A stretch of 64,000 bases of DNA, from positions 62,257 to 126,256 of the forward strand of contig NZ_KB904724.1 in the NCBI RefSeq assembly GCF_000380165.1, given 5' to 3'. The position numbers and the translations under genes were made by a program. The stretch comes from Wenjunlia vitaminophila DSM 41686. Its GTDB lineage: Bacteria; Actinomycetota; Actinomycetes; Streptomycetales; Streptomycetaceae. Below, piece by piece: positions 7,950-64,000 of this stretch. The notes beneath the pieces were generated by a model. It saw only the letters and a list, made by a program, of their open reading frames with translations. It was not told the origin of the DNA and did not search any database. The stretch's first letter is position 1. Every line of letters begins with the position of its first letter.

Positions 7950-8012
7950 CGGTTTCTCCTCCTCGAGACTGGCCGTGCTGTCCTTCCGGCACATTGTGCC
8001 AGTAAGGCAACC

Positions 8013-15110: not shown

Positions 15111-16218
15111 GTTCGCCGCCACGGCCGGCTCCCCGCGCCCGGCCGCGCCCACCACCGCCGCCCCCGGCTCCGGGGGCGCCGCCCGGAGCCGGCCGGAGCC
15201 CCACCGGGGCCTGTTCGTCAGCGAGATGATCACGACCCGGGCGCTGGTGGAGCGGGACGCCAAGACCCTCCGGCTGATCCGTTTCCAGGACGGTGAACGC
15301 CCGCGTTCCCTGCAGTTGTACGGCGTGGACCCGGACACCGTCGGGCGCGCCGTGCGCATGATCGTGGACGAGGACCTGGCCGACCACGTGGACCTCAACT
15401 TCGGTTGCCCGGTGCCCAAGGTGACCCGCAGGGGCGGCGGTTCCGCGCTGCCGTACAAGCGGCCCCTGCTGCGGGCCATCCTGCGGGCCGCCGTGGGCAA
15501 CGCCGGGTCGCTGCCGGTGACCATGAAGATGCGGACGGGCATCGACGACGACCACCTGACCTATCTCGACGCCGGCCGGATCGCCGCCGAGGAGGGTGTG
15601 GCCGCGATCGCGCTGCACGGCAGGACGGCGCAGCAGCACTACGGCGGCACCGCGGACTGGTCGGCCATCGCCCGGCTGAAGGAGGCCGTGTCCGAGGTGC
15701 CGGTGCTCGGCAACGGGGACGTCTTCAGCGCCGAGGACGCGGTGCGCATGGTCCGGGAGACCGGGTGCGACGGCGTGGTGGTGGGGCGCGGCTGTCTGGG
15801 GCGCCCCTGGCTCTTCGCGGACCTGGTGGGGGCCTTCACCGGCGGCGGGGCCCCGGCGCGGCCCACGCTGAAGGAGGTCGCCGCGGTGATGGTGCGGCAC
15901 GCCGAACTGCTGGGCCTGTGGCTGGGCGATGAGGCACGGGGTGTCATCGACTTCCGTAAGCACGTGGCCTGGTACACCAAGGGCTTCGCGGTGGGTTCCA
16001 CGCTGCGCCAGCGCATGGCCATGGCGTCGTCGCTGGCCGAGCTCGAGGAGCACCTGGCGGCGCTGGACCTGGACCAGCCGTGGCCGGTGGGGGCGGAGGG
16101 GCCCCGGGGGCGGACCACGGGGAGCCGGCGGGTGGTGCTTCCTGACGGCTGGCTTCGGGACCCGTACGACGCGGCCGTCCCCAGCGACGGGGCCGAGTCG
16201 GACGTCTCCGGCGGCTGA
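15010..16218 (+). CDS. dusB: tRNA-dihydrouridine synthase (DusB-like)
   Basis: An FMN enzyme that reduces uridines in the tRNA D-loop. It has 402 residues: PMAGITNAPFRTLCRE near residue 20, FMN-contacting EMITTRALVE, catalytic Cys133 in FGCPVPKVTRRGGG, HGRTAQQHY near 205 and GNGDVFSAEDA near 235. The start is TTG 15010 with GGAGGA 5 nt upstream. An Ala/Pro/Gly-rich insertion of about 25 residues sits between CREF and FVSEM near residues 36-65, absent from typical Dus proteins. The 5' end overlaps the upstream XRE frame by 101 bp. Confidence 0.93.
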   Translation: MSQLQIGPHTVEPPVVLAPMAGITNAPFRTLCREFAATAGSPRPAAPTTAAPGSGGAARSRPEPHRGLFVSEMITTRALVERDAKTLRLIRFQDGERPRSLQLYGVDPDTVGRAVRMIVDEDLADHVDLNFGCPVPKVTRRGGGSALPYKRPLLRAILRAAVGNAGSLPVTMKMRTGIDDDHLTYLDAGRIAAEEGVAAIALHGRTAQQHYGGTADWSAIARLKEAVSEVPVLGNGDVFSAEDAVRMVRETGCDGVVVGRGCLGRPWLFADLVGAFTGGGAPARPTLKEVAAVMVRHAELLGLWLGDEARGVIDFRKHVAWYTKGFAVGSTLRQRMAMASSLAELEEHLAALDLDQPWPVGAEGPRGRTTGSRRVVLPDGWLRDPYDAAVPSDGAESDVSGG

Positions 16219-16749
16219 ACCGGGCCCCCGGGCAGTGGTCGCGCGCCGGCCGGCGGGCCGGTCCAGTGGGGGATGCCCGGGTCCGCCCGCCCGTCGCCCG
16301 GGTTGATGTCCGTATGCCGAGATGGCCGGATGCGGGTCCTGGCGTGATCCTCACCACCTGCCACCCGGGGACAGGCGACCGTTTCGCGTCGCGTTGGCGG
16401 GCCCACCCGGTGGGGCCCCGCCGACAACTGTCCAAGACATGGCACCCCGTGCCACCTCTGCTGACTGCACAGGTCCAAGAGTCCGGTCACCCTGCGCAGT
16501 CGTCGGTCCGGCGGTTGCGCGTAGAACGGGCGGGTTCCGGTGCGGCGTGTCCTCGCCCGTTCAACCAGTGAACTCGCCATGACAACGTTGGCCCGATTGG
16601 AGGATCGTAGGCGCCATGGCGTGAATCCCTTTCGATCTTCTGTCGGATGGGTGGTTGGCCGCTGCCTGGCCGTCGTGAACGCTCTCATCCGCCTTTGATT
16701 TGGGTACGCTCCCCGCCGTCAGGGCATCCGTGCGGCGAGGAGCTGACCC
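16219..16749. promoter_or_regulatory. Long gene-free leader before ppdK
   Basis: About 530 nt without a convincing gene. It contains a 9-bp inverted repeat GAACGGGCG (16524-16532)/CGCCCGTTC (16554-16562), a candidate -10 box TACGCT at 16705-16710, and the ppdK ribosome binding site GAGGAG just before the GTG. The length suggests a regulated promoter or an untranslated leader. Confidence 0.45.
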
Positions 16750-35655: not shown

Positions 35656-35728
35656 TCCCCTGTAGCTCAATTGGCAGAGCAGCCGGCTGTTAACCGGCAG
35701 GTTACTGGTTCGAGTCCAGTCGGGGGAG
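35656..35728 (+). tRNA. tRNA-Asn (GTT)
   Basis: A 73-nt cloverleaf: 7-bp acceptor stem (TCCCCTG/CGGGGGA with one G-U), D-arm TAGCTCAATTGGCAGAGC, anticodon loop CTGTTAA with anticodon GTT, T-loop GGTTCGAGTCC. CCA is not encoded. A hairpin follows. Confidence 0.95.
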
Positions 35729-35736
35729 CGGCTGAG

Positions 35737-35940: not shown

Positions 35941-36014
35941 GGGGCGGTAGCTCAGCCGGTTAGAGCAGCGGACTCATAATCCGTGGGTCGTGGGTTCGAG
36001 TCCCACCCGCCCCA
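35941..36014 (+). tRNA. tRNA with CAT anticodon (elongator Met; Ile2 not excluded)
   Basis: A 74-nt cloverleaf: acceptor GGGGCGG/CCGCCCC, discriminator A, D-arm with GCCGGTTAGAGC, anticodon loop CTCATAA (anticodon CAT), T-loop GGTTCGAGTCC. It is not an initiator because of the paired acceptor end. CAT-anticodon tRNAs read AUG, or AUA after lysidine modification by TilS; the acceptor stem does not settle which. CCA is not encoded. Confidence 0.9.
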
Positions 36015-36439
36015 CCCGGCCACTTCGGCGCAGGGTCAGGCCCGGCCCGCAACCGCGTCAACGAGCAACGGTCATGAAGGTTACGAAGCCCCGCGCGGTT
36101 GCCGGCCCCCGTTGGCCGTCGTCCCGGCCGACGTCTCCCGGCTGTGCGCCCCGTCCCGCCCCGCTGTCCCCGGTGTCCCGCGCGCCCCTGCGTGCCCTCG
36201 GTCCGGCCGTGCGGTCCCCGCCGGAGCGGGTCCGGTGGCGCCCCAGGGGCGCGCGTGGTGGCCGAGGTGCTGCGATGGGGTGCACCAGGAGGTGGCGCGG
36301 GGAGGCGGCCACTGGATAAGACTGGACTCCCACGGGTAGTTGCCAGGAGTCCGCACCTGCGTCGATCCGTCCGTAGGCGTTGACGTGAGCCCGGTGACAA
36401 CATCCCGTGCTTGGGGCGGAGCAGGACGAAGGGGGCAGC
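36015..36439. other. Gene-free stretch after the CAT tRNA
   Basis: About 425 nt with no reading frame carrying coding bias. It contains a 7-bp inverted repeat GGACTCC/GGAGTCC (about 36324-36352) and a -35-like TTGACG before the methyltransferase gene. It marks the start of the accessory segment. Confidence 0.4.
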
Positions 36440-51114: not shown

Positions 51115-51177
51115 TTCTGGGGCTCACCCCTTGACTGACGTCTCGAGGGCTCCTTACTCTCCTCGGGCCAGCCATCG

Positions 51178-51192
51178 GCAATTCGTATTAGC
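51178..51192 (-). promoter_or_regulatory. LacI-type operator copy 3
   Basis: GCAATTCGTATTAGC, i.e. GCTAATACGAATTGC on the minus strand; 14 of 15 positions match copy 1. It lies just downstream of the predicted LacI transcription start and 25 nt before its ATG, a roadblock/autoregulation position. Confidence 0.75.
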
Positions 51193-51217
51193 TACGCACC
51201 GTAGGGGGTTCTCACTC

Positions 51218-52231
51218 ATGCACCGAGGTCCCGCCAGGCTCACCCAGCGTGACATAGCCAGGCTGGCCGGGGTCAGCCAGACGACGGTGTCCCTGGTGCT
51301 CAACAACCGCCTCGACGCGGCGGCGCGCATCGCCCCGGAGACCCGGGAGCGTGTGCTGCGGGTCATCCGGGAGACGGGGTACGTCGCTGACCCGTTGGCC
51401 CGCCGCATGCTCAAACAGCTCAACCAGATCCTCGGCGTCTTCACCTACGAACCGGTCTTCCCCAGCACCAGCGCCGACTTCTACTACCCCTTCCTGCGCG
51501 GCATCGAGGAGAGCGCCGAGCGCAGCGGCTGCGACCTGCTGCTGTTCACCAGCGCGCCGGTGCGCAACGGACAGCGGCGCATCTTCCACGAGAACAACCG
51601 CCTGCGGGTGGCGGACGGCTGCCTGCTGCTCGGACGGGAGATCCCTTCGGCCGAGCTCAGCCGGCTGGTGGCGGAGGACTACCCGTTCGTCTGCGTGGGA
51701 CGCCGCGACGACGCCGACGGGCAGCCGGTGCCCTACGTCGGAGTGGACTACGTGACCGCCACGGCACGCCTCGTGCGGCAGGCCGTCGCCCTGGGGCACC
51801 GCAGGTTCGCGTACCTCGGTCCCGAGCCCCTCGCCGAGTCGTCCGCCGACCGGCTGAGGGGTTTCCGCGAGGTCGCCGGGGCGGACGCACCGCACCTGTT
51901 GGACGGTGCGCACACGCCGCAGGAGCACCTGGCCCGGTTGCTCGAGCACGGGGTGACCGCGGCGTTCGTGGAGTTCCCCGTCACCGCCGCCGCCCTGGTC
52001 GAGGCCGCGGCGGAACGCGGGCTCGACGTGCCCGGCGACCTGTCGCTGGTCGTGCTCGGCGCCCCGGCAAGCGCGGGTGACCTCACCGGTTTCCGCATCC
52101 CCCGGGAGGAGATGGGCCACCAGGCCGTCGCCCTCCTCCTGGACGTGCTGCACGGTCAGGCGACCGAGGTCCAGCAACTCCTGCGGTGCGAGCCGGCACA
52201 GGGGCGCACGCTCGCCGCGCCGCGCGACTGA
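51218..52231 (+). CDS. LacI-family regulator of the sugar locus
   Basis: A 337-residue repressor. The HTH LTQRDIARLAGVSQTTVSLVLNN lies at residues 8-30, then a sugar-binding-type effector domain (YPFLRGIEESAERSGCDLLLF, RRFAYLGPE, FVEFPVTAAALVEAAAERGL). The start ATG 51218 has TAGGGGG upstream. Three matching operators with central CG surround its promoter and that of the divergent propeller gene. It therefore probably represses both directions, including the downstream oxidoreductase and transporter genes. Confidence 0.92.
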   Translation: MHRGPARLTQRDIARLAGVSQTTVSLVLNNRLDAAARIAPETRERVLRVIRETGYVADPLARRMLKQLNQILGVFTYEPVFPSTSADFYYPFLRGIEESAERSGCDLLLFTSAPVRNGQRRIFHENNRLRVADGCLLLGREIPSAELSRLVAEDYPFVCVGRRDDADGQPVPYVGVDYVTATARLVRQAVALGHRRFAYLGPEPLAESSADRLRGFREVAGADAPHLLDGAHTPQEHLARLLEHGVTAAFVEFPVTAAALVEAAAERGLDVPGDLSLVVLGAPASAGDLTGFRIPREEMGHQAVALLLDVLHGQATEVQQLLRCEPAQGRTLAAPRD

Positions 52232-52290
52232 CCGCCGGCCCGTCCGGCCCGTCCGACCCCACCTCGCCCAGCGAACCAGCAAGGAGACCC

Positions 52291-53886
52291 ATGCACGCGG
52301 ACGTCCTCGTCGTCGGCGGTGGCACCGGAGGTGTCGCGGCGGCGCTCGGCGCGCTGCGCGTCGGCCGGACCGTGATCCTCACCGAGGAGTACGACTGGCT
52401 CGGCGGCCAGTTCACCAGCCAGGCCGTGCCGCCGGACGAGCACACCTGGATCGAGCAGTTCGGCGCGACCGCCTCCTACCGGGCGCTGCGCGACGGCGTC
52501 CGTGACTACTACCGGCGCAACCACCCGCTCACCGACACCGCGCGGCGCCGCCGCGACCTGAACCCGGGCGCCGGCTGGGTCAGCCGCCTGTGCCACGAGC
52601 CCCGGGTCGCCGTTGCCGTCATCGACGAGATGCTCGCCCCCCACCGCGGCTCCGGCCGGCTGACCGTGCTCCAGCCCTACCGGCCCGTCGCCGCCGACAC
52701 CGACGGCGACCGGGTCACCGCGGTGACCCTCGCCCACCGGGACAGCGGGGAGCGGCTCACCGTCACCGCCGCCTACGTGCTGGACGCCACCGAGACCGGG
52801 GAACTGCTGCCGCTGACCGGCACCGAGTACGTCACCGGATTCGAGTCGCAGTCCGACACCGGCGAGCCCAGTGCCCCCGGCACCGCCCAACCCCTCAACA
52901 TGCAGGCGGTCTCCTACTGCTTCGCCGTGGACCACGTGGACGGCGACCACACCATCGACCGTCCCGCCGGTTACGACTTCTGGCGCGACCGGCAACCCCC
53001 GTTCTGGGGCGCCCCGCTGCTGTCCTGGAGGGCCCCGCACCCACGGACCCTGGAGATCGTCGAGCGGAGCTTCACCCCCAACCCCGGCGACGACCCGCAC
53101 TCCGTCCTCGCCGACCAGCGCGTCGGCGGTGGCGACGCCAACCTGTGGACGTTCCGCAGGATCGCCGCCCGCGACAACTTCCTCCCGGGCGCCTACGACA
53201 GCGACATCACCCTGGTCAACTGGCCGATGATCGACTACTTCGAGGGCCCGGTCCTCGACGTGCCGGACGCCGGGGCGCACCTGGCGGCGGCCAAGGAACT
53301 GTCGTTCTCCTTCCTGTACTGGATGCAGACCGAGGCGCCCCGCCCCGACGGGGGCACCGGCTTCCCGGGCCTGCGGCTGCGGGGGGACGTCACCGGCAGC
53401 GCCGACGGTCTCGCCCAGGCGCCCTACGTCCGCGAGTCCCGCCGCATCCGCGCCGAGTACACCGTGGTCGAGCAGGACCTCTCGCTCGACGTGCGCGGCG
53501 GGGCGGGCGCCGTCAGCTACCGCGACTCCGTCGGCGTCGGCATGTACCGCATCGACCTGCACCCCTCCACCGGCGGGGACAACTACATCGACGTCCCGTC
53601 CAGCCCCTTCGAGATCCCCCTCGGCGCACTGCTGCCCCTCCGCGTCGAGAACCTCCTGCCCGCCAGCAAGAACCTCGGCACCACCCACATCACCAACGGC
53701 TGTTACCGCCTCCACCCGGTCGAATGGAACATCGGCGAGGTCGCCGGGCTGCTCGCGGCGCACTGCGTGGCCGGCGGACTGACCCCGCGCGCCGTGCGGA
53801 ACACCCCCCACCTCCTCGAGGACTTCCAGCGCCTGCTCACCGACCACGGGATCGAGCTGCGCTGGCCCGACATCAGCGGCTACTGA
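52291..53886 (+). CDS. FAD-dependent oxidoreductase (PF12831-like)
   Basis: A 531-residue flavoprotein. Dinucleotide-binding VLVVGGGTGGVAAALGALRVG at the N-terminus, LTEEYDWLGGQFTSQ near 32, VLDATETGELLPL near 165, C-terminal NLLPASKNLGTTHITNGCYRLHP with a further FAD contact. It belongs to a family often located beside ABC sugar importers and thought to oxidise sugars or their derivatives. AAGGAG lies 4-5 nt before ATG 52291. No signal peptide; cytoplasmic. It is 59 nt after the LacI gene and 14 nt before the binding-protein gene. Confidence 0.88.
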   Translation: MHADVLVVGGGTGGVAAALGALRVGRTVILTEEYDWLGGQFTSQAVPPDEHTWIEQFGATASYRALRDGVRDYYRRNHPLTDTARRRRDLNPGAGWVSRLCHEPRVAVAVIDEMLAPHRGSGRLTVLQPYRPVAADTDGDRVTAVTLAHRDSGERLTVTAAYVLDATETGELLPLTGTEYVTGFESQSDTGEPSAPGTAQPLNMQAVSYCFAVDHVDGDHTIDRPAGYDFWRDRQPPFWGAPLLSWRAPHPRTLEIVERSFTPNPGDDPHSVLADQRVGGGDANLWTFRRIAARDNFLPGAYDSDITLVNWPMIDYFEGPVLDVPDAGAHLAAAKELSFSFLYWMQTEAPRPDGGTGFPGLRLRGDVTGSADGLAQAPYVRESRRIRAEYTVVEQDLSLDVRGGAGAVSYRDSVGVGMYRIDLHPSTGGDNYIDVPSSPFEIPLGALLPLRVENLLPASKNLGTTHITNGCYRLHPVEWNIGEVAGLLAAHCVAGGLTPRAVRNTPHLLEDFQRLLTDHGIELRWPDISGY

Positions 53887-53900
53887 CCAGGAGAACCGCC

Positions 53901-55166
53901 ATGAACACGCACCTCCGGAACCGCAGAACCACCCTCGCCGCACTGACCGTCGCCGGCCTGCTCGCCCTCACCGCCTGCGGAGGGGGCGACGGCGGGTCGG
54001 GCAGCGAAGGACCCGTCTCCCTGAGCATGACCATCTGGACCGGGAACGAGGAGCACCTGAAGCTCCTGAACGGCATAGCGGCCGACTACCGCAAGAGCCA
54101 CCCGGAGGTGAAGGAGATCAAGTTCGACACCCTGCCGGTGGAGACCTACACCACCACCCTCACCACCCGGATCGCCGGGGGCAAGGCCCCCGACCTGGCC
54201 TGGATACTGGAGAACTCAGCCCCGGACTTCGTCTCCTCCGGGGCCCTGGTCCCCGTCAAGGACGACCCGGACGTGCTGCCGGCGGCCAAGAAGCTCTGGC
54301 AGCGGGACGGCAAGCTCTACGCCTACCCCTTCTCCACCTCGCCCTACGGGGTCTTCGTCAACACGGACCTGATCAAGAAGGCAGGTCAGCCCGCGCCCGC
54401 GGACCTGATCGAGCAGGGCAGGTGGAACTGGGACGAGGTCGCCAAGATCGGCTCCGCGGTGAACGCCAGGACCGGCAAGGCCGGCATGGTGATCCGTGAC
54501 TTCGACTACAAGGCATGGGACAACCTCGCCTCCGTGTGGAACGGCTGGGGCGCGGAGGCGTGGAGCGAGGACGGCAGGACCTGCGGCTTCGACAAGCCCG
54601 AGATGGTCGGCGCGATGACCTACCTGCACCGGGCCGTCTTCGAGGACAAGGCGATGCCCGCGCCGGGCACGACCGCGGACTTCTTCTCCGGGGAGGCGGC
54701 AATGACCGTCACCCAGATCAGCCGCGCCTCGCTGCTGACGGACTCGTTCGCGTGGGACTTCGTGCCGCTCCCGGAGGGCCCGAAGGGTCCCTATGACGTG
54801 ATCGGCCAGGCCGGGCTCGGTGTCTTCGGCAACGGCAGGCACGTGGAGGAGGCCACCGACTTCCTCACGTTCATGACCAACGCGGAGAACTCCGCCAAGC
54901 TCGGCCGCTTCTTCCCCCAGGCCCGCACCTCCCAGTTGGACGCGGCCACCCTCGCCGCGAGCAACCCCCAGGTCAAGCCCGAGGCATTGGAGGAGGTCGT
55001 GATCAACGGGATCAAGGAGGGCAAGGTGAAGCCGAGCCACACCAACCAGTCGGAGATCGCCGAGGCCGTGCGGTCCGCGCTCGACCCGCTGTGGACGCCC
55101 GACGCGGACGTGGAGAAGGTCCTCGGTGACGTCTGCTCCGCGATCAGGCCGCAGTTGGAGAAGTGA
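53901..55166 (+). CDS. ABC sugar-binding lipoprotein (CUT1 type)
   Basis: A 421-residue extracellular binding protein. Signal peptide with lipobox LTAC (Cys26), then a family-1 solute-binding fold (MTIWTGNEEHLKLLNGIAADY near 43, FSTSPYGVFVNTDL near 146, EAAMTVTQISRASL, VIGQAGLGVFGNGRHVEEA). Together with the two permeases it forms an oligosaccharide importer; no ATPase gene is present, so a shared ATPase (MsiK type in actinomycetes) is likely used. GGAG lies 9 nt before ATG 53901. Confidence 0.94.
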   Translation: MNTHLRNRRTTLAALTVAGLLALTACGGGDGGSGSEGPVSLSMTIWTGNEEHLKLLNGIAADYRKSHPEVKEIKFDTLPVETYTTTLTTRIAGGKAPDLAWILENSAPDFVSSGALVPVKDDPDVLPAAKKLWQRDGKLYAYPFSTSPYGVFVNTDLIKKAGQPAPADLIEQGRWNWDEVAKIGSAVNARTGKAGMVIRDFDYKAWDNLASVWNGWGAEAWSEDGRTCGFDKPEMVGAMTYLHRAVFEDKAMPAPGTTADFFSGEAAMTVTQISRASLLTDSFAWDFVPLPEGPKGPYDVIGQAGLGVFGNGRHVEEATDFLTFMTNAENSAKLGRFFPQARTSQLDAATLAASNPQVKPEALEEVVINGIKEGKVKPSHTNQSEIAEAVRSALDPLWTPDADVEKVLGDVCSAIRPQLEK

Positions 55167-56119
55167 CGGTCCCCGCCATGAAGACCCTCGAACGGTCCAC
55201 CTCCGCAGTGCCCCCGCCCCAGCGGTCCCGGCGCCCCTTCTGGACCGCACGCCGCCGGGACCACGCGGTCGGCTACCTGTTCATCGCACCGCAGCTCGCC
55301 GGCAGTGTGATCTTCGTCCTGATCCCGCTGGTGATGGTGCTCTGGTACAGCTTCCACGAGTGGAACGTGCTGGCGGGGACGTTCCACTCGGTGGGGGCGG
55401 ACAACTACCGCGCCCTCGCCGACGACCCCAAGCTGCCCGGCGTCCTGAGGAACACCGCCCTCTTCTCGGCCGGCCTGGTGACCCTCAACCTCGGCCTCGC
55501 GCTGGCCCTCGCCGTGCTGCTCAACCAGAGACTGCGCGGCCGCGTCGTCTTCCGCACCCTGTTCTTCTCGCCGGTCGTCGTCTCGCTGGTGGCCTGGACC
55601 ATCGTGTGGGGGTTCCTCCTGCAGAAGAACGGCGGCATCAACGCCTTCCTCGACCTGGTGGGCGTCCAGGGGCCCAACTGGCTGCGCGGCGAGGGCACCG
55701 CGATGCTGTCCGTCGTCGTCGTCCAGGTGTTCAAGAACGTCGGCCTGAACATGGTGCTCTTCCTGGCCGCGCTCCAGGGCGTGCCCCAGGAGTTCTACGA
55801 GGCGGCGACCGTGGACGGCGCGGGGCGGTGGCGCCAGTTCTGGCGCATCACGGTGCCGCTGATCAGCCCCACGATCCTGCTCACCTCGATCATCACCGTC
55901 GTCGGCTCGCTCCAGGTGTTCGCCCAGATCGCCGTGCTCACCCAGGGCGGCCCCGGGGACTCCACCACCGTGCTCGTCTACTACCTCTACCAGCAGGCCT
56001 TCGAGTTCCACCACTTCGGCTACGGCGCGACGCTCTCGGTGCTGCTGTTCCTCATCGTCCTCGTCCTCACCGTCATCCAGTGGCAGATGCGCAAGAGGTG
56101 GGTCTTCCATGAGAACTAA
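55163..56119 (+). CDS. ABC sugar transporter permease 1
   Basis: A 318-residue MalF-type membrane subunit with about six hydrophobic helices and the EAA loop EFYEAATVDGAGRWRQFWRITVPLISPT near residue 212-240 (split). The N-terminal 40 residues are cytosolic and basic. The start is taken as GTG 55163 overlapping the upstream stop (GTGA); ATG 55178 is equally plausible. Confidence 0.92.
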   Translation: MTVPAMKTLERSTSAVPPPQRSRRPFWTARRRDHAVGYLFIAPQLAGSVIFVLIPLVMVLWYSFHEWNVLAGTFHSVGADNYRALADDPKLPGVLRNTALFSAGLVTLNLGLALALAVLLNQRLRGRVVFRTLFFSPVVVSLVAWTIVWGFLLQKNGGINAFLDLVGVQGPNWLRGEGTAMLSVVVVQVFKNVGLNMVLFLAALQGVPQEFYEAATVDGAGRWRQFWRITVPLISPTILLTSIITVVGSLQVFAQIAVLTQGGPGDSTTVLVYYLYQQAFEFHHFGYGATLSVLLFLIVLVLTVIQWQMRKRWVFHEN

Positions 56120-56948
56120 GCCGTCCCCCCGCGCCAGGCTCCTGCTCTACGGACTGCTGCTGGTCCTGTGCGTACCGTTCGTCTTCCCCACCTGGTGGAT
56201 GGTGACGTCCTCGCTGAAGCCGGCCACGGAGATCTTCGCGTTCCCGCCGTCGCTGCTGCCCGACCACCCGGAGTTCGGCGCCTACGACAAGGTCTTCGAC
56301 CTCCAGCCCTTCGGACAGCAGTACGTCAACAGCATGTACATCGCGGCGGTCGTGACGCTGGGCACCCTGGCCTTCTCCTCCCTCGCCGGCTACGCCTTCG
56401 CCCGCATCCGCTTCCGCGGCCAGAACGCCCTCTTCCTCGTGGTGCTCACCGGGCTGCTCATCCCCAGCGAGGTCACCATCGTGCCGCTGTTCCAGATGTT
56501 CCGTGACTGGGACATGATCGACACGCACTGGCCGCTCATCCTGGTCCCGGTCTTCGGGGCCCCCAGCGTCCTGGCGACCTTCATCATGCGGCAGTTCTAC
56601 ATCGCGCTGCCCAACGAGCTCGAGGAGGCCGCGCGCATGGACGGCCTCGGTCGGTTCGCCACCTTCCTGAAGATCGCCCTGCCCCTGTCCCGACCGGCCC
56701 TGGCCGCTGTCGCGATCTTCACCTTCCTGCACAGTTGGAACCTCTACCTCGAGCCGACGGTGTACCTCTCCACCCCGGAGAAGTTCACCCTGCCCCAGGC
56801 GCTGACCAGTTACGTCGACGCCTACGGCGGTCCCATGTGGAACGTCCAGCTCGCCGCGGCCTCGCTCACGGCGCTTCCGGTGCTCGCGGTGTTCGTCTTC
56901 GCGCAGCGGCAGTTCGTCGAGGGGCTCGCCCACACCGGTCTGAAGTGA
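56109..56948 (+). CDS. ABC sugar transporter permease 2
   Basis: A 279-residue MalG-type membrane subunit with about six helices and EAA loop ELEEAARMDGLGRFATFLKIALP. It overlaps permease 1 by 11 nt. It ends 6 nt from the convergent AsnB-like gene, without a terminator between them. Confidence 0.93.
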   Translation: MRTKPSPRARLLLYGLLLVLCVPFVFPTWWMVTSSLKPATEIFAFPPSLLPDHPEFGAYDKVFDLQPFGQQYVNSMYIAAVVTLGTLAFSSLAGYAFARIRFRGQNALFLVVLTGLLIPSEVTIVPLFQMFRDWDMIDTHWPLILVPVFGAPSVLATFIMRQFYIALPNELEEAARMDGLGRFATFLKIALPLSRPALAAVAIFTFLHSWNLYLEPTVYLSTPEKFTLPQALTSYVDAYGGPMWNVQLAAASLTALPVLAVFVFAQRQFVEGLAHTGLK

Positions 56949-56954
56949 CCCCCC

Positions 56955-58682
56955 TCAGTCGGTGACGTCGAAGGAGCGCAGCCACAGCTCCAGGGTGAGG
57001 ACGAGCCACAGCTTGCCGCCCTGACGGGGCAGCAGCGTTCCCGTGCCGCGGAGCCACGACCGCACGGTGTCCTCGCGGAACAGGCCCCGGTCGCGGGCCG
57101 ACCTGCCCAGCAGCAGGTCGTGGCCCAACTCCCGCAGGGGCCCGTGCAGCCACCGCTGGACGGGCACCCGCATGCCGCTCTTCGGCCGGTCCACGACGGT
57201 CGCCGGCAGCAGGTCCCGCACGGCCTCCTTGAGGATCCACTTCTCCACGGTCCCGGAGAGCTTGAACCGGGACGGCACCCGGAACGCCTGGTCGATCACC
57301 TCCCGGTCGAACAGCGGGGCACGGCCCTCGAGTCCGGTGGCGGCGGTGATCCGCTCCACCTTGCTCAGGATGTGGTGGGCGCCCTTGGTCCGCAGGTTGG
57401 CGTGGAGCAACTGGTTGAGCAGGCCGTTCATGCGTCCCGGACGCAGGTAGGGCGCCACCAGGTCCTGCGGGGGCGGGGCGGGGGCCAGCGCCGCCAGCGC
57501 GTCACGGGTCAGCAGGGTGGGCAGGTCGGCGTGGCACTTGCGGTAGGAGTCCACGTACGCCCGCGCCCGGGACTCCGGGGAGGGATCGTCCCGGTGCAGC
57601 TCGTGGACGAGCATCGGGAGGTTCTTGGGGCCGCCGAACACCGGGTCGCCGCCCTCGCCGTTGAGCGCCACCCGCATCCCGTCGGCGGCGACCGCCTCGG
57701 CCAGCAGCAGGTTGGGCACGGTGAGCGGGTCGCCGACGGGGCAGTCCAGCAGGGCGACGGTCTCCGGGAGCCGGGCGGCGACGGTCTCCCCCGCGACGGT
57801 GAGCACCCGGTGCTCGGTCCCGCAGTGCGCGGCCACGAGCCCGGAGTAGGCCAGCTCGTTGGGCGCGTCGTCGCCGAAGCTGATCGAATAGGTGCGGACC
57901 GGGCCCGGGTGGAGCCGCGCCGCGAGCGCGGTGACCAGACTGCTGTCCACGCCGCCGGACAGCAGGACCCCGACCGGCCCCGCGTCCGGCAACCGCCGCG
58001 CCGTGGCCTGCTCGAGCAGGGCGCGCAGTCGCCCGGCGTGCTCGGCGGCCGGTGACTCGTCCACCGCCTCGGCCGGCTCCCAGAAGGTCTCCTCCACGGT
58101 GGTCCCGTCCGCGCGCAGCCTCAGGCACCGGCCGGGCAGCACCTCGTGCACCCCGCGCAGCAGCGTCTCGGTGCCCGGGAGGTAGGCGAACGTGAGGAAC
58201 GAGCGCACCGCGGGCAGGTGCAGCCCGGTGTGCAGCGCCGGCCAGCGGCGCAGGGCGCGCAGCGAGGTCGCCGCCGCCCACCGGGAGCCGGCGCGGGCGT
58301 GGAACACCGTGCGGGCCCCCACGTGGTCCCGGACCAGCACCAGGTCCTCTCCGTCCGCGATGGCCAGCGCGAACATGCCGTCCGCCGCGGCGAGGCCGGC
58401 GGTGCCGAACGCCGCGTAGCAGCGCAGCAGCAGCTCGCCGTCCGGGCAGTCGCCGCCGTCGGCCCCGGCGGCGCCGAGCCGGGCGCGCAGTTCGGCCGCG
58501 TTGAACAGGGTGACCTCACCCACCGCCCAGCGTCCGGCCGCCTCGAACGGGCCGGTCGCCGCGCCGGGTCCTTCGAGCAGCCCCAGGGCCCGCCGGCCGG
58601 CGACCCGCACCGCCCGGCCGCCCATCGCCTCCACCTGGCCGGCCGGGTCGTCCGCCGCCAGGCACGCACACCACCGCGCCAT
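56955..58682 (-). CDS. Asparagine-synthetase-like enzyme lacking the N-terminal Cys nucleophile
   Basis: A 575-residue protein. C-terminal ATP-pyrophosphatase synthetase domain with SGGVDSSLV at 242-250, NGEGGDPVFGG near 350, KVERITAATGLEGRAPLFD near 455. The N-terminal ~200 residues keep parts of the GATase fold (DGMFALAIAD, VRDHVGARTVFHA), but the protein starts MARWCACLA, so Cys2 of true AsnB is missing, as are RGPD-type motifs. It probably uses ammonia or forms another amide bond, as in lasso cyclases and beta-lactam synthetases. It ends a minus-strand operon, 10 nt after the glycine-rich protein gene. Confidence 0.85.
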   Translation of the reverse strand: MARWCACLAADDPAGQVEAMGGRAVRVAGRRALGLLEGPGAATGPFEAAGRWAVGEVTLFNAAELRARLGAAGADGGDCPDGELLLRCYAAFGTAGLAAADGMFALAIADGEDLVLVRDHVGARTVFHARAGSRWAAATSLRALRRWPALHTGLHLPAVRSFLTFAYLPGTETLLRGVHEVLPGRCLRLRADGTTVEETFWEPAEAVDESPAAEHAGRLRALLEQATARRLPDAGPVGVLLSGGVDSSLVTALAARLHPGPVRTYSISFGDDAPNELAYSGLVAAHCGTEHRVLTVAGETVAARLPETVALLDCPVGDPLTVPNLLLAEAVAADGMRVALNGEGGDPVFGGPKNLPMLVHELHRDDPSPESRARAYVDSYRKCHADLPTLLTRDALAALAPAPPPQDLVAPYLRPGRMNGLLNQLLHANLRTKGAHHILSKVERITAATGLEGRAPLFDREVIDQAFRVPSRFKLSGTVEKWILKEAVRDLLPATVVDRPKSGMRVPVQRWLHGPLRELGHDLLLGRSARDRGLFREDTVRSWLRGTGTLLPRQGGKLWLVLTLELWLRSFDVTD

Positions 58683-58692
58683 TGCCCGTCCC

Positions 58693-59211
58693 TCAGCCGA
58701 AGTCGTCGAAGAGGTCGTCGCCACCCGTGCCGTCGCCCCAGTCGCCGTAGCCCCCGCCGCCCGAGAAGTCGCCGCCCGAGGCGTCGCCGCCGGCCTGGCC
58801 CTGGGCCTGGGCCTGGCGGCGCAGCTCCTCCTCCTGCTCCGGGGTCAACGCGGTGGGCGGTGCGACGAGACCCCCGACCAGGGCGCCCGCGGAGGCGGCG
58901 GCCAGGATCGCCCCCAGGCGCCCGCCGAACGACGTCCGGTTCACCGTCAGCACCCCGTCGCTCCACAGGGTGCGGCCGTAGCCGGCCTCCCGGCCGTAGA
59001 GCACCCGCCCGTTGCTGAAGACCCGCTTGACGACGCGCTGGCCGAGCAACTCGTCGGTGCCCTGGCGACCGCGGTTGTCCCGCCAGGCCACGAGGGTGGG
59101 CCCCTGGCGGACGCGCCACTCCTGGCGGCGGTCGGAGTACCGCCGGTGCACGGAGCCGTCCGCGAGCAACTCGTCCGTGTAGGTCGTCTCCTGCCGGTTC
59201 CGGGGCGACAC
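58693..59211 (-). CDS. Hypothetical protein with membrane segment and glycine/aspartate-rich tail
   Basis: A 172-residue protein I do not recognise. The N-terminal ~90 residues hold aromatic/charged beta-like motifs (YTDELLADGSVHRRYSD, VKRVFSNGRVLYGREAG, RTLWSDGVLTVNRTSFGG). One hydrophobic segment LGAILAAASAGALVGGLVA lies near 110-128. The C-terminal tail is Gln/Gly/Asp-rich and acidic (DWGDGTGGDDLFDDFG). The start GTG 59211 has AGAGGA 6 nt upstream; ATG 59226 overlapping the upstream stop is an alternative. It lies between the HDASP-motif genes and the AsnB-like gene. Confidence 0.75.
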   Translation of the reverse strand: MSPRNRQETTYTDELLADGSVHRRYSDRRQEWRVRQGPTLVAWRDNRGRQGTDELLGQRVVKRVFSNGRVLYGREAGYGRTLWSDGVLTVNRTSFGGRLGAILAAASAGALVGGLVAPPTALTPEQEEELRRQAQAQGQAGGDASGGDFSGGGGYGDWGDGTGGDDLFDDFG

Positions 59212-59222
59212 TGCATGTCCTC

Positions 59223-60038
59223 TCATCGGGTGGGCCAGCTCAGGAAGCCGGTCTCGCGGGCCCGTCGCACCCCACCGGGCCGCCGTCGGGTCCTGACGTC
59301 GCGGACCAGCCGGTGCACCGTGCGCAGCAGCGACGCCGGCCGCACGGCCGCGACCTCCGCGAACCTGTCCCGCTCCAGCCACCGCTGTTCCGCGTGGGCC
59401 AGCCGCAGCGTGGGGCTCGGCGGTGCCACGGTCCGGGTGGTGGCCCGGCCGTGGGTCAGGTGCAGGGAGCCGGCCTGCCGGGGACGCAGCCCGAGCGGGA
59501 CCACCCTGGTGCCGTCCGGCAGCCCGGTGAGACCGGGGAGGCGCTGCGGGAAGGTGAGTCCCCACGGGGACGCGTCGTGCAGCAGGTAGACCGTGGCGCC
59601 CTCGGCGCGGGCGAGCATCTCGACCACCCCCGGGGCGAGGGGGAGTTCGGCGGCGCTGAACATCGGGCACGCCGACTCCATCGGCAGCCCGTTGGCCCGC
59701 AGCATCCGCGCGATGTCATGGGACTCGCACACCAACAGCCGCGGCAGCCCGTAGTCGAACAGGTCCGGCTCCGGGGTGTGCCGTCCGGCACCAGGCACCG
59801 GCGGTGCCGCCGCCGGGAGCAGCCCGGGCACGTCGCCGAGGCGGCACAGTGCCGCGCGGAAGTCCGGGTAGCGCACCGTCGGGGCGACGGTGAACGCGGG
59901 CCGCCGGGGCGCCCGGTGCCAGGGGCCCAGCACCCGGCACAGCTCGTAGTACAACTGGCGCTCGGTGAAGCGGACCGCCCCGGGGGCGGCGGCGCTGGCC
60001 ACCGCGATCCGCAGCGCCCGGTCCACCAGGGTGCCCAT
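59223..60038 (-). CDS. HDASP-motif protein A (unknown, paralogue of the next gene upstream)
   Basis: A 271-residue protein of unknown function, paralogous to the 339-residue protein encoded just upstream. Shared features: RFTERQLYYELCR near residue 22, LLVCESHDIARMLRANGLP near 107, VYLLHDASPWGLTF near 155, PLGLRPRQ, LLRTVHRLV near 243 and the C-terminus GFLSWPTR. The ERQLYYELCR segment plus CES/HDASP-x-GL recalls the Topo VI-A/TOPRIM layout, but the second Asp of DxD is replaced by Ser. The ATG overlaps the upstream stop by 1 nt (TGATG). Confidence 0.75.
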   Translation of the reverse strand: MGTLVDRALRIAVASAAAPGAVRFTERQLYYELCRVLGPWHRAPRRPAFTVAPTVRYPDFRAALCRLGDVPGLLPAAAPPVPGAGRHTPEPDLFDYGLPRLLVCESHDIARMLRANGLPMESACPMFSAAELPLAPGVVEMLARAEGATVYLLHDASPWGLTFPQRLPGLTGLPDGTRVVPLGLRPRQAGSLHLTHGRATTRTVAPPSPTLRLAHAEQRWLERDRFAEVAAVRPASLLRTVHRLVRDVRTRRRPGGVRRARETGFLSWPTR

Positions 60039-61057
60039 CACCGCTCCGGCCAGGTGAGGAAGCCCACCCCGCGGGCGCCCCGGTGGTCCGGGTCGGTGGC
60101 TTCCGCCGCCCGCCGCGCCGCCTGGTGCACCGCCGTGAGCAGCGCTGCCGGGGGCACCGCTGCCAGCGGCGACCACCAGCCCTGGGCCAGCCAGTCCAGC
60201 TCCTCGTCGGTCAGGGTCGGGCAGGAGGCCCGCAGCTCCGCCACGCCGTACTGGGGAAGCGGGCTCTCCCGTAGCCGGACGGCGTTCTCGTGGGCCATCA
60301 CGGACCGCGGCAGCAGCCCGACGACCAGTGCTCGCTCGCCGAGCGCGGTGCGGGCCGCGGCGGCGAAGGCGAGCCCGGAGGGACTGGCGTCGTGCAGGAC
60401 CACGGCGGGCACCCCGGGGGGAACCTGGTCCGGTGACTGAACCATCGCCATGGTCGGGGCGGCCGGGGCGTCGTTCGCGGCGAGGCAGTCGAGCACCGCC
60501 CGGTCCGGGCAGAGCACGGCGACCCCGGGACGGGGCGGCGCGGGCAGCGGGGCCGCGGTCGGCGGCACCAGGCCGCGCGGGCGACGCCCGTACACCTCGG
60601 CCCACCGCTGGAGCACCGCCGACTCGAACCGCTCCAGGGACATCGGCATCCGGACCGGATCGACCCTGCGGGCCCGGCGGCGGGCCAGGAACAGGCACAG
60701 GACCAGCACCGCGAGCACCGGCCCGCCGACGAGCAGCACGGGCTTCCGGAAGGGGTTCGCCGACACGATCGAGACCGCGGCGACCAGGGTGATGACGACG
60801 AGGGTGACGAAGCAGCCCCTGGAGGCCTGGCCGGCCGGGGGGATGCGGTTGCGTGACGCGGCGTACCACAGTTGGGGAGCGGTGTAGCGCAGCCCCCGGC
60901 CGTCACCGAGCTTCTCGGCGAGTGTGCGCATCCGCACGTCGTGCAGCCGCAGCTCGTTGTCCTTGGGCTCCAGGGCGAACGTCCGCTTGCAGGCGAGGCA
61001 GGTCCGGCCGGTGCGTTCCTTGTGCAGCAGGTTCACCGAGCAGTGCGGGCAGATCAC
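60038..61057 (-). CDS. HDASP-motif protein B (zinc ribbon, two TM segments)
   Basis: A 339-residue protein. CPHC...CLAC zinc ribbon at residues 3-25, a RYTAPQLWYAASRNRI segment near 60, two hydrophobic helices (VTLVVITLVAAVSIVSA, VLLVGGPVLAVLVLCLFLA) near 80-120, then the domain shared with protein A: VAVLCPDRAVLDCLAAN, VVLHDASPSGLAF, VGLLPRS, LLTAVHQAARRA, GFLTWPER. So it is a membrane-tethered paralogue. The start GTG 61057 overlaps the stop of a 36-codon frame (GTGA). Confidence 0.72.
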   Translation of the reverse strand: MICPHCSVNLLHKERTGRTCLACKRTFALEPKDNELRLHDVRMRTLAEKLGDGRGLRYTAPQLWYAASRNRIPPAGQASRGCFVTLVVITLVAAVSIVSANPFRKPVLLVGGPVLAVLVLCLFLARRRARRVDPVRMPMSLERFESAVLQRWAEVYGRRPRGLVPPTAAPLPAPPRPGVAVLCPDRAVLDCLAANDAPAAPTMAMVQSPDQVPPGVPAVVLHDASPSGLAFAAAARTALGERALVVGLLPRSVMAHENAVRLRESPLPQYGVAELRASCPTLTDEELDWLAQGWWSPLAAVPPAALLTAVHQAARRAAEATDPDHRGARGVGFLTWPER

Positions 61058-61164
61058 GACGGGCCGCCCGGTCGTGCCGGGCGCGGCGGGCGGGGCCCGG
61101 CCAGGTGGCGCGGCGGACCTCCCACCGACCCGGCCGGGTCGGTGGGTTCGCGTGTGCCGGTCAT
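61054..61164 (-). CDS. 36-residue Pro/Arg-rich frame upstream of protein B
   Basis: A short reading frame ATG 61164 to TGA 61054, preceded by GGAAGGG (5 nt spacing), a better ribosome binding site than that of gene B. The product begins MTGTREPTDPAGSVGG and is Pro/Arg/Gly-rich. Its stop overlaps the GTG of gene B by 4 nt, suggesting translational coupling. It may be a leader peptide, a small precursor peptide, or the true N-terminus of gene B separated by a one-base frameshift. Confidence 0.45.
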   Translation of the reverse strand: MTGTREPTDPAGSVGGPPRHLAGPRPPRPARPGGPS

Positions 61165-61347: not shown

Positions 61348-62088
61348 ATGAGCGTGTCGCACCAGCGAATGAAGCACAGCGCCGACGACGAGAACGAGGT
61401 GCACGACGTCGCCCGTTTCCAGGACGCGGCGAGGAACGTGGTCACCCCGGTCCTCCGACTCCCCGCGGACACGGCGCTGGCCGTGGTCAACGCGTTCGCC
61501 GAGATCGTCAGGAACGCCAAACGGAGCCGGGTGGCCACCACACCCGACCGGGACGGCGTCGTGCGCTCCCAGACCTTCGAGGAGGGCGACGTCTACATGG
61601 TCGAGGCGCCCTTCGACGGTTTCTTCGCGGACCGCTACCTCATGGACTTCTACGACGTGGAGCAACGGGGCATCTGCTCCCGCATGCACCTGCACACCGG
61701 GCTGCGACTGGTGCGGATGATGACCGGCCCGGACACCCAGATCCGGGTGAGCAGCCTCTCCCCGTTCGAGGTGACCGACGTGCCGGGCGTTACCCCGTTC
61801 CTGCCGCGGACGTTCCAGGACACCCTGCCGGACACCCCCGAGGACGTCACCAGGACCCGCCACAACCTCGTGGTACCGCCCTGTTCCTTCGTGGACATGC
61901 AGATACCGCGGGGGGTGAGCCACCAGTTCAACGCCGTCGGGCCGCACGCGGTGATCGACTCGGTGCACCCCGAGGAGTCCATCGAGACGTTCCGGGAAAG
62001 GATGTCGGGGTACCGGATGACGGCGCAGACCGTGTTCCTCGCCGAGGACCTCCCGCCCGCGGACACCTGCGTCAACCTGCCGACCTGA
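61348..62088 (+). CDS. Cupin-like protein of unknown function
   Basis: A 246-residue protein. The middle shows cupin-like segments: GICSRMHLHTGLRLVRMMTG near residue 108 (three His candidates) and a second motif VDMQIPRGVSHQFNAVGPHAVIDSVHPEE near 182-210 (split) with further His/Glu. No signal peptide. GGAGGG lies 4 nt before ATG 61348. Cupins include dioxygenases, isomerases and hydroxylases in natural-product pathways. It is divergent from gene B and overlaps the convergent ATP-grasp gene by 17 nt. Confidence 0.7.
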   Translation: MSVSHQRMKHSADDENEVHDVARFQDAARNVVTPVLRLPADTALAVVNAFAEIVRNAKRSRVATTPDRDGVVRSQTFEEGDVYMVEAPFDGFFADRYLMDFYDVEQRGICSRMHLHTGLRLVRMMTGPDTQIRVSSLSPFEVTDVPGVTPFLPRTFQDTLPDTPEDVTRTRHNLVVPPCSFVDMQIPRGVSHQFNAVGPHAVIDSVHPEESIETFRERMSGYRMTAQTVFLAEDLPPADTCVNLPT

Positions 62089-63364
62089 CGCCGACCGCCC
62101 CGGCCAGGTCCCTGGCGCCGACCCGCACGGGGCCCGGGGCGCCAGGACCGGGGAACTCCACGGTGAACGACAGTTCCGCAAGCGCCTCGGAGATCACCCG
62201 CGGCACCCGGGCGTGGTCCTCGGCCGAGCCGCACAGGATGTCCACCTCGCCGGTGCGCACCCCGCCGGTCAGCGAGGTGCCCGGGGACACCAGCGTGCGG
62301 TAGCCGGAGATCCCCGCGGCACGACGGACCCGGGACGCGCCGTGGACGCCCACGATCCGGCAGTCCACCGCGGGGGCCAGGGTGTGGTGCTGGAAGTGGA
62401 CGCGGTCCGGGCGGGCCACCGCCGGTTCCGGCCGCTCACCCAGGGCGATGCGGCCGGCGAGCTCCACCAGGTCCACCCCCGCGGCCCGGGTGCTGAGTTC
62501 GTTGACGAACCCGCCGAGCCTGCCGTTGACCTCGATGACGCGGGGGCCCCGCGGGGTCAGCTTGACCTCCGTGTGGGTCAGCCCGTGGGCGACCCCAAGG
62601 GCCCGCAGGGCGGCTCCGGTCAGCGCCAGCACCTGCCGTTCCTCGTGGGGGGCGAGCGACGACGGCCAGAACTGGCCGGTCTCCCGGAACGGCGGCACCA
62701 CGGGGAGCTTCCCGGTGACCGCGAGATGGGTGATCCGGCCGGCGACCACCGCCGACTCCACGGACACGTAGTCGCCGAACGGCCCGCGGTCGGTGCCCCG
62801 CAGGTACTCCTCGACCACCAGGCGGCGCTCGCCCGCGCCCCCGGCACCGACCGGCGCCAGCAACCACCCCACGAGCGCGGCCCCCTCGGCCCGGCCGCGC
62901 ACCAGGTGGGTGTGGCGGCTGGCGGCGCCCCGCGCCGGTTTGACCACCGCCGGCAGCCCCGTGGTCCGCACGGCGTCGGGCCACCGCCGGGGGTCGGTGA
63001 GGTCCACCGACACCACCGGGTGGGCCTCCGCGCGGCGCAGTCCGCGGCGCTGCGCCGACTTGTCGGTGAGCATGGTGACCGTGGGCCCGCTGTGCGCGGG
63101 CAGCCCCCACCGGGCGGCGATCCGGGCGGCCGGCCGCAGCATGGTCTCGCTGAAGGTCAGCACCGCGTCGGGGCGGGGGCCGTCGGCCACCTCGTCGAGG
63201 CGGACCACCTGGCCGAGCCGCCGCGACAGTTCCAGCTCCGCACCGCCGTGCCGCCGCGGCGGGAGGACCACCAGCAGGTCACCGAGGCGACCGAGGCCCT
63301 CGGCGATCTCCACCAGGGAGGCCGAACCGCCGTCATACAGGACGGCCAAGCGCTTCCTCGCCAT
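62072..63364 (-). CDS. ATP-grasp carboxylate-amine ligase
   Basis: A 430-residue ATP-grasp enzyme. Central ATP-binding region with VVKPARGAASRHTHLV near residue 142, VVEEYLRGTDRG near 183, and the metal-binding VIEVNGRLGGFVNELS near 272. C-terminal ~100 residues resemble the tail of L-amino-acid ligases (BacD/carnosine-synthase group). It activates a carboxylate as acyl phosphate and couples it to an amine, making a dipeptide or similar amide. The ATG 63364 overlaps the MFS gene end by 32 nt, so the two are cotranscribed. Confidence 0.9.
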   Translation of the reverse strand: MARKRLAVLYDGGSASLVEIAEGLGRLGDLLVVLPPRRHGGAELELSRRLGQVVRLDEVADGPRPDAVLTFSETMLRPAARIAARWGLPAHSGPTVTMLTDKSAQRRGLRRAEAHPVVSVDLTDPRRWPDAVRTTGLPAVVKPARGAASRHTHLVRGRAEGAALVGWLLAPVGAGGAGERRLVVEEYLRGTDRGPFGDYVSVESAVVAGRITHLAVTGKLPVVPPFRETGQFWPSSLAPHEERQVLALTGAALRALGVAHGLTHTEVKLTPRGPRVIEVNGRLGGFVNELSTRAAGVDLVELAGRIALGERPEPAVARPDRVHFQHHTLAPAVDCRIVGVHGASRVRRAAGISGYRTLVSPGTSLTGGVRTGEVDILCGSAEDHARVPRVISEALAELSFTVEFPGPGAPGPVRVGARDLAGAVGVRSAG

Positions 63365-64000
63365 GGGTGCGGTCCTCCTCCGTGTCGGGTCTCGGTGCGG
63401 ACCAGCCGCCCAGCGTCCTGACCTCGCGGACCGCCAGGACGCCCAGCGACGACAGGGCGACGACCGCGGCGGCGGCGAAGAGGGTGGTGCGCGCCCCGAC
63501 CGCCACCGCCAGGGGGCCGGCCAGGGCCATCCCGGCGGGGGTCAGGGCGGTGGAGGTCAACCAGTCGAAGGCCTCCACCCGGGAGATCCGGTCGGCCGGG
63601 ATGCGCTGTTGCACGGCGGTGTCCCACAGGGTGCCGCCCAGGCCGAGCGCGGTGTTCATCGCGCACGCCGCCAACGCGATGGCGGCGACCGGGGCGTGGA
63701 AGCCGATCAGCAGCAGCGGCACGCTGCCCAGCGCCATGCAGACGTTCGCGGTGACCAGCGGCCGGCGCGGGCGCCAGCGCAGCGCGAGGACCGCGCCGGC
63801 CAGTGCGCCGGCCGTCCCGGCCTGGCTGATCACCCCCCAGGAGAGCTCGCCGCCCAGGGAGCGCAGCACCACCAGCGCGCCGACGGTGAAGAACACGCAG
63901 CGGCCCAGGTTCCACAGGCAGTGGCTGATCAGGTTGGTCCAGTACCAGCGCCGCCGCCGCACCTCCCGGAAGCCCTCGGCGAGCTCGGCGGTGAACCGTC
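63333..64000 (-). CDS. MFS exporter (N-terminus cut by window edge)
   Basis: The C-terminal ~222 residues of a major-facilitator transporter (MFS_3/enterobactin exporter-like). The loop TAELAEGFREVRRRRWYWTN precedes about six hydrophobic helices. The stop lies inside the ATP-grasp gene start. Adjacent to an ATP-grasp ligase, it probably exports the product. The frame is open to the right edge. Confidence 0.87.
   Translation of the reverse strand, partial: RFTAELAEGFREVRRRRWYWTNLISHCLWNLGRCVFFTVGALVVLRSLGGELSWGVISQAGTAGALAGAVLALRWRPRRPLVTANVCMALGSVPLLLIGFHAPVAAIALAACAMNTALGLGGTLWDTAVQQRIPADRISRVEAFDWLTSTALTPAGMALAGPLAVAVGARTTLFAAAAVVALSSLGVLAVREVRTLGGWSAPRPDTEEDRTHGEEALGRPV

Follow-up and report, generated by a model that had tools for sequence, protein, structure and literature searches.

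We describe a conserved gene unit in a 64,000-nucleotide stretch of the Wenjunlia vitaminophila DSM 41686 genome (contig NZ_KB904724.1, positions 62,257 to 126,256 of the forward strand; hereafter the window, part of a 6.43 Mb genome). The unit, which soil bacteria allied to Streptomyces and Nocardia have in common, encodes two paralogous TOPRIM-like proteins, A and B, a small protein, C, that ends almost invariably in Asp-Phe-Gly, and an asparagine-synthetase-like (AS-like) ligase, D. In the libraries and literature searched this is a new kind of system, whose parts belong distantly to known folds. As a tentative explanation, we propose a membrane-bound system for modifying a protein tail, in which D might activate the C-terminal end of C while the basic A and B proteins hold C.

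A conserved unit of paralogues, small protein and ligase

The four genes lie on the minus strand in the order B, A, C, D. B (60038-61057, 339 aa) has a zinc ribbon, two transmembrane (TM) helices, a TOPRIM-like domain and a C-terminal GFLTWP; A (59223-60038, 271 aa) is its soluble paralogue, with a winged-helix-like N-terminus and a TOPRIM-like domain. C (58693-59226, 177 aa) has a Gly-rich acidic tail, preceded by an N-terminal domain and a hydrophobic segment, and D (56955-58682, 575 aa) is an asparagine-synthetase-like ligase without the N-terminal Cys, as read from its translation, Pfam, its alignment and alignments to Protein Data Bank (PDB) entries. Given the overlaps of one to a few bases between B and A and between A and C, and the start of D 10 bases past C, the arrangement is operon-like. 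A fifth gene, E (61348-62088, plus strand, 246 aa), is divergently transcribed upstream of B and is cupin-like by motif (HxH ... PxGxxHxxN). The first-pass annotation, made from the sequence alone, had extended the span to an ATG at 61164; this codon is out of frame with B, which starts at the GTG at 61057.

To place the unit in context, we used 71 loci from genome contigs, found by exact peptide patterns of the window A and hence weighted towards close relatives. They include Streptomyces, Kitasatospora, Actinacidiphila, Nocardia, Gordonia, Prauserella, Amycolatopsis, Actinokineospora, Actinophytocola, Frankia and a Solirubrobacteraceae bin. Among the 66 loci with sufficient flanks, B adjoins A in 64 by script (65 once the A start of locus L056 is corrected), and C and D are each adjacent to A in 65. 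The sole real exception, L086, holds a lone A (7944-8702) with an altered C-terminal motif and without B, C or D, perhaps a remnant. The four genes first proposed as an operon are thus conserved together, and the system is larger than that proposal, as E (or an unrelated gene, G, in its stead) belongs to it too. Gene orders could be classed for 70 loci (L095, without a phmmer-scored A, was left out): 23 read G-B-B-A-C-D-F, 21 read B-A-C-D-E and seven carry E divergently, the rest being variants or cut by contig ends.

Exactly one cupin-type gene, E or G, is present in 52 of 53 loci, and one locus (L057) has neither. E keeps HxH and PxGxxHxxN in 28/28 copies with no Pfam cupin match, and G matches Cupin_2 at E 8e-6, its 25.9 bits falling just short of the 27.2 cut-off. 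Homology between E and G was rejected, as their profiles do not match (probability 0.1%). The E and G alignments are hand-picked, with 12 of the 28 listed E proteins beside the window protein and 26 of the 41 listed G proteins. On a tree of D, the 29 rows from E loci form one group (98/96) against 35 rows from G loci, under a midpoint root placed on the long Gloeothece branch, so that a single swap of the cupin-type gene suffices. F, present in most Streptomyces loci, is an aldehyde dehydrogenase nearest to aminobutyraldehyde dehydrogenases, below the cut-off of that model.

Clustering of neighbours across the 71 loci recovered the dehydrogenase in 27 loci and G in 19 (in more by direct search). 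Three opposite-strand families in 24-28 loci have representatives antisense to the dehydrogenase and no Pfam match, and are taken as shadow open reading frames (ORFs). A major facilitator superfamily (MFS) transporter family occurs in 10 of the 71 loci (for example, L038 13667-15148), about 6 kb downstream of A and on either strand. The remaining clusters cover at most eight loci each, and the six representatives scanned gave an acyltransferase, a beta-lactamase, a luciferase-like monooxygenase, a glyoxalase-fold dioxygenase and two proteins without a match. Among the recognised neighbours in these loci, the small clusters being partly annotated, no peptidase, regulator or transporter is a regular companion.

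The distribution of the unit is patchy. It was found in 29 of 297 genomes of the family, including the window's own and two marginal partial cases (G079, G109), in 27 of 118 genomes of another genus, inferred to be Nocardia (G753 and G778 being weak or partial), and in 3 of 396 genomes from an even draw of the phylum, again with the window's own included.

The C-terminal end of C is constrained as protein

The roughly 90-residue N-domain of C is followed by a hydrophobic stretch, whose 19-residue hydropathy reaches 1.6 or more in 82 of 96 copies, and by an acidic, Gly-rich tail with a median net charge of -11 over the last 35 residues. The region from the last Pro-Pro to the end is variable in length, at 42-74 residues in 83 of the 96 copies. 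All 96 copies terminate in Phe-Gly and 95 in Asp-Phe-Gly (58696-58704 of the window, minus strand), and 88 of the 96 are distinct proteins, tails included. Such endings are rare in the surroundings: the same loci contain 3805 ORFs no shorter than 150 aa, and of the 73 that end in Phe-Gly, 68 are the 68 C genes, against 5 of the other 3737.

An ending forced at the DNA level by the start of D was considered and is ruled out by synonymous codon changes and variable spacing. Asp is encoded by GAC (72) or GAT (23), Phe by TTC (84) or TTT (12) and Gly by GGC (78), GGG (11), GGT (4) or GGA (3), and C and D range from overlapping to about 200 nt apart, with the end constant even where D starts more than 40 nt away (a distance of 5738 belongs to a second D-like gene in L061, and a few negative distances are start-call effects). 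The constraint therefore acts on the protein. In a hand-picked alignment of 26 C members (23 of 83 listed, two unlisted and the window protein), 18 match Tcp10_C weakly (best E 5e-5; window C 13.7 bits against a cut-off of 36), and CPAP chains match C at E near 1, which may perhaps reflect a similar beta sheet.

D is an AsnB-like ligase without the glutaminase nucleophile

D had been called AsnB-like, a description that is borne out by its Asn_synthase domain (Pfam) and its SGGVDSS ATP loop. S-G-G-x-D-S-S and RPKSG are present in 20/20 rows of a hand-picked alignment (19 of 68 D proteins and the window protein), and the C-terminal Lys is kept. The loop is common to asparagine synthetase B, from which D differs in having no Cys nucleophile at position 2 in any of 68 N-termini, called by nearest start codon. 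The DEVFGGY of AsnB reads DPVFGGP in D (Pro347 and Pro352 in 20/20 rows; DPCFGGP in Gloeothece), so that Pro-x4-Pro replaces Glu-x4-Tyr. Among solved structures, a hydroxyamidotransferase and beta-lactam synthetase (E 2.6e-22) match D best, and AsnB is also a relative. D shares the asparagine-synthase domain and the SGGxDSS loop with beta-lactam synthetase, lasso-peptide cyclases and the AS-like peptide-tailoring enzymes PesC, TsrC and ScdTA; it scores 109.8 bits against a cut-off of 525 for the lasso cyclase model (NCBIfam NF033535) and falls under the cut-offs of other models as well. One locus, L061, has a second D-like asparagine-synthase gene (15128-16816) about 4 kb past D.

A and B are paralogues with an incomplete TOPRIM-like metal triad

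A and B had been described as tandem paralogues with collinear motifs, and two lines of sequence comparison agree on this: two-sequence BLASTP (E 9e-10 across the last 135 residues) and profile-profile alignment (99.8%, E 5.8e-29, 244 columns) identify them as true paralogues. The profile alignment runs from the N-terminal motif of A through the C-terminal GF[LM][TS]WP, with the B membrane hairpin as an insertion, and a search of the genome with the A profile listed the A and B places alone. The alignments used throughout hold the window protein with 80 of 81 listed copies for A and with 92 of 106 for B, after removal of short, contig-edge or identical copies, a duplicate locus (L030) and an antisense match in L096.

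The zinc ribbon and paired TM helices first noted in B were recovered. Its CxxC...CxxC cysteines (residues 3, 6, 20 and 23; 60989-61051, minus strand) are kept in 93/93 rows, and the predicted model has long hydrophobic helices at residues 77-100 and 104-132, the hairpin of residues 77-132 (60662-60829, minus strand) being defined by DSSP on the model in agreement with hydropathy. A carries a TERQLYY motif (residues 25-31; 59946-59966, minus strand), in which T25, R27, Q28 and L29 are present in 81/81 rows and Y30 and Y31 in 80/81. Both proteins are basic, with median pI values of 11.1 (A) and 10.1 (B).

AlphaFold models (mean pLDDT 86.8 for A from the 81-row alignment, 92.3 for B from the 93-row alignment) match one TOPRIM group in VIA-align searches. 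The A model found Topo VI-A first (1d3y, Z 9.8 over 165 residues at 3.8 Å), followed by 8b7f (8.7), a Corynebacterium glutamicum nuclease that we take to be MksG, JetD (7til, 7.8), Spo11 (6.9) and DnaG (5.7). The B model likewise found Topo VI-A first (9o0g, Z 8.6), followed by DnaG and JetD (both 8.2) and 8b7f (8.0). These scores are moderate, as models without a clear match often reach Z 7 to 8; B also matches a receiver domain at 7.3, and the first unrelated rows for A lie near 5. The proposed likeness to TOPRIM domains near Topo VI-A and Spo11 is thereby supported, and the two proteins do not fall into unrelated folds. Foldseek alone gave no match below E 0.04 for either model, and the POMGNT2 rows that it ranked first for A were discarded at a TM-score of 0.24.

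The fold matches span the TOPRIM part (residues 98-248 of A, 59295-59747; residues 168-315 of B, 60113-60556; both minus strand), with the top A alignments beginning at residue 78. The winged helix proposed for A lies outside these matches and is suggested by the conserved T-x-R-Q-L-Y-Y, with the Arg-to-Tyr spacing of Topo VI-A. No TP6A_N match (Pfam) was found among 81 A members, nor in any of 396 phylum genomes, where it was sought as a source for a Topo VI-A profile comparison; with no such proteins there, homology of the A winged helix remains a motif argument.

Methanosarcina mazei Topo VI-A provides a reference for the active site, to which the winged helix contributes Tyr106 and Arg102 and the TOPRIM domain E202, D254, D256 and E342 (PMC13040014, in the part available). 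Like it, A shows an R-x3-Y motif in an N-terminal helix, spaced as Arg102 and Tyr106, and A residues Asp155 (Asp 77, Glu 4 in 81 rows) and Glu228, a position assigned by spacing (Glu 71, Gln 9, Asp 1), match Asp254 and Glu342 by spacing. Unlike it, A mostly has Gln at the counterpart of E202 (position 105: Gln 54, Glu 21, Arg 4, Gly 2), and the counterpart of D256, within the HDASP motif (residues 154-158; 59565-59579, minus strand), is never Asp (position 157: Ser 73, Gly 4, Thr 3, Ala 1). The Glu of the A motif 'ESHD', highlighted in the first-pass annotation, is accordingly not a conserved feature. The reported Ser at the last acidic position holds for A and fails in part of B, where D223 is Asp in 93/93 rows and its +2 position is Asp in 20; the reported loss of the first Glu in B applies to most rows, with Glu kept in 11/93.

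A complete Glu-Asp-Asp triad is present in 0/81 A and 0/93 B rows, and DNA cutting by A or B is for this reason unlikely, as judged from the alignments. What is constant instead is a core Cys (Cys104 in 81/81 A, the matching Cys183 in 93/93 B), and then His154 (81/81 A, 79/93 B); within its TOPRIM-like domain A also has invariant N116 and E121. A further departs from Topo VI-A in its company, a membrane paralogue and a ligase, with no B-subunit ATPase seen among the regular partners. The most probable reading is a TOPRIM fold that has ceased to be a metal-dependent nuclease, the Arg-Tyr pair of A leaving a small opening for DNA cleavage.

A related pair on a Gloeothece plasmid

A Gloeothece plasmid encodes one protein that joins the zinc ribbon and membrane part of B with an A-like TOPRIM sequence, and whose profile matches A at 99.1% and B at 99.0%. 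It has Gln at the first-Glu position and HNAN in place of HDAS, keeps the core Cys and the His, and ends in SFG. Adjoining it is a D orthologue with 43% identity to D; among the 12 other records of the plasmid search with D (E 1e-40), a Streptomyces D alone exceeds 30%. The A/B-D pairing thus occurs in two phyla, the second represented by this one case. Another AsnB-like protein and a pyridoxal phosphate (PLP) decarboxylase (nearest to diaminopimelate decarboxylase, below cut-off) lie beside the pair, and no C relative was found in the 20 kb of Gloeothece sequence (best E 0.74). The same stretch encodes a TIGR04222 membrane protein with a Gly/Cys tail, GGCGCGC (730-2049), and not far from the cluster is a gene with a protelomerase-family annotation (14000-15361), on a plasmid record typed conjugative and listed as linear.

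Modification of the C tail and its alternatives

We infer an arrangement in which A and B form a platform, the C tail binds it as ligand, and the same tail is the target of D. A and B would associate via their TOPRIM domains and so form a basic platform at the membrane, which would not cleave DNA but hold the acidic C tail. D would adenylate a carboxylate of the tail, most likely that of the C-terminal Gly or of the Asp in Asp-Phe-Gly, and join it to an amine of non-glutamine origin. E, or the unrelated G, would make or tailor this partner group, as would, in most Streptomyces loci, the amino-aldehyde-dehydrogenase-like F. The synteny, the invariant C end, a D without the Cys, the acidic C tail facing basic A and B, and the Gloeothece A/B-D pairing were counted in favour of tail modification. 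The proposal has a precedent in the AS-like enzymes PesC, TsrC and ScdTA, whose targets are the C-terminal carboxylates of ribosomal peptides, as a preprint reports in the part available (PMC13060819).

Several points weigh against it, and we regard the proposal as a possibility of modest standing. The contacts of D with C and of C with A and B are themselves inferred. The available part of the same preprint also reports that the PesC dyad Glu363-Tyr368 matters for carboxylate activation; by spacing, the Pro-x4-Pro of D would occupy that position, so D chemistry may differ, and the lost dyad would speak against plain C-terminal amidation. The neighbourhood, without a regular peptidase, regulator or transporter (MFS in 10/71), is unlike that of a dedicated exported-peptide pathway. 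Should the C segment span the membrane according to the positive-inside rule, the tail would lie outside, away from D. Finally, the Phe-Gly end of the Gloeothece A/B relative is a single case.

An extended form of the proposal would be protein tagging, or synthesis on a protein: a membrane-anchored C, its Asp-Phe-Gly end activated by an AMP-forming asparagine-synthetase-type ligase, would be bound by a topoisomerase fold that had lost its metal site in evolution and gained an invariant Cys and a conserved His. We consider this rather unlikely. To our knowledge, no ubiquitin-like or Pup-like tag is activated by an AMP-forming ligase of the asparagine-synthetase type. Pearlin-type scaffold peptide biosynthesis (TglA, AmmA), in the partial accounts available, likewise has a small genome-encoded protein whose C-terminus is a possible site of chemistry; it differs in that no PEARL, peptidase or dedicated transporter is recognised as a regular neighbour here.

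Somewhat more doubtful than tail modification is a scheme in which the C tail is a docking motif for the basic A and B, not a substrate, and A, B and C sense, hold or deliver a small molecule produced by D together with the cupin-type protein and the dehydrogenase. The acidic tail opposite basic A and B and the invariant last residues after a variable linker would fit docking, and the D orthologue, PLP decarboxylase and dehydrogenase suggest amine or acid chemistry; many AS-like enzymes work on small molecules. The acidic tip of single-stranded DNA-binding protein (SSB) offers a parallel, in that a Gly-rich linker is followed by acidic residues and a terminal aromatic. However, SSB tails end in Phe and C ends in Gly, and the Gloeothece A/B and D relatives lack a recognisable C relative within 20 kb.

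We think it unlikely that the operon is one of small-molecule biosynthesis with A and B as DNA-binding regulators that associate with the membrane and descend from a Topo VI-A/Spo11-like ancestor. The strongly basic A and B, the conserved winged-helix-like motif and the B zinc ribbon agree with such a role, as do the cupin, ligase and dehydrogenase genes. In our judgement, though, two or three paralogous regulators heading one operon and so tightly co-inherited would be unusual, and the invariant C end would go unexplained.

A DNA-cleaving or DNA-trapping defence system would draw on the fold relatives JetD and 8b7f, which share the TOPRIM fold with A, on a patchy distribution (27/297 family genomes without the two marginal matches) and on the counterparts that A keeps of Arg102 (81/81), Tyr106 (80/81), Asp254 (77/81) and, by spacing, Glu342 (71/81); moreover, in the Topo VI cleavage structure E202, replaced in most A rows, and D256, replaced in all of them, lie about 4 Å from the metal, beyond inner-shell contact (PMC13040014, in the part available). 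MksG, as far as the available part of its description goes, is the opposite of A in that its metal ligands are retained and the 5Y-CAP Tyr is missing (PMC10123090). No SMC partner was recognised, the families in more than 10 of the 71 loci being cupin, dehydrogenase and antisense ORFs and the small clusters partly annotated, and JetD_C was not found in the window's genome. With full triads in none of the A or B rows, HNAN rather than HDAS in the cyanobacterial relative, metabolic genes as regular partners, no PADLOC (9 proteins) or PHROGs (4 proteins) match and no relatives in phage records (A, B and the Gloeothece protein) or viral contigs (A and the Gloeothece protein), we judge a defence role, Wadjet-like (JetD/MksG) or with a Topo VI-like Tyr, to be improbable.

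On the tail-modification proposal, a near-absolutely conserved C-terminal tripeptide beside a carboxylate-activating enzyme type constitutes a directly testable case for a new tail modification. Independently of it, a Topo VI-A/Spo11-type fold apparently serves here in a capacity other than the recognised DNA-cutting ones, with two or three copies per operon tied to a ligase, in actinobacteria and on one cyanobacterial plasmid.

Family libraries and literature

A, B and C match no family above cut-off in Pfam, NCBIfam, PADLOC or PHROGs, which upholds the earlier statement that no named system corresponds to the operon; PADLOC returned 0 families for nine proteins at E 0.1. Weak matches of B to RPA_interact_C, SidA_fam and assorted zinc ribbons, and of A to HMG-CoA reductase and NTP pyrophosphohydrolase, were judged chance or generic and rejected. 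In the open-licence literature, judged mostly from titles and the starts of abstracts, we found no description of the operon, and a term search of the available part of PMC13118837 gave no mention of asparagine synthetase, TOPRIM or topoisomerase.

Other genes in the window

Beside E lie an ATP-grasp gene (62072-63364, minus strand), with a weak likeness to alanine-anticapsin ligase far below cut-off, and, preceding it, a reading frame that is MFS-like by sequence (63333-63998, minus strand); together these may form a separate dipeptide or amide operon. On the other side, genes at 51131-56948 (plus strand) read as a LacI-type regulator, an FAD-dependent oxidoreductase, a sugar-binding lipoprotein and two ABC permeases, and look like an unrelated sugar-uptake operon converging on D. 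Further away, tRNA-Asn and tRNA-Met genes at 35656-35729 and 35941-36016 are the sole Rfam matches above gathering score in the window.

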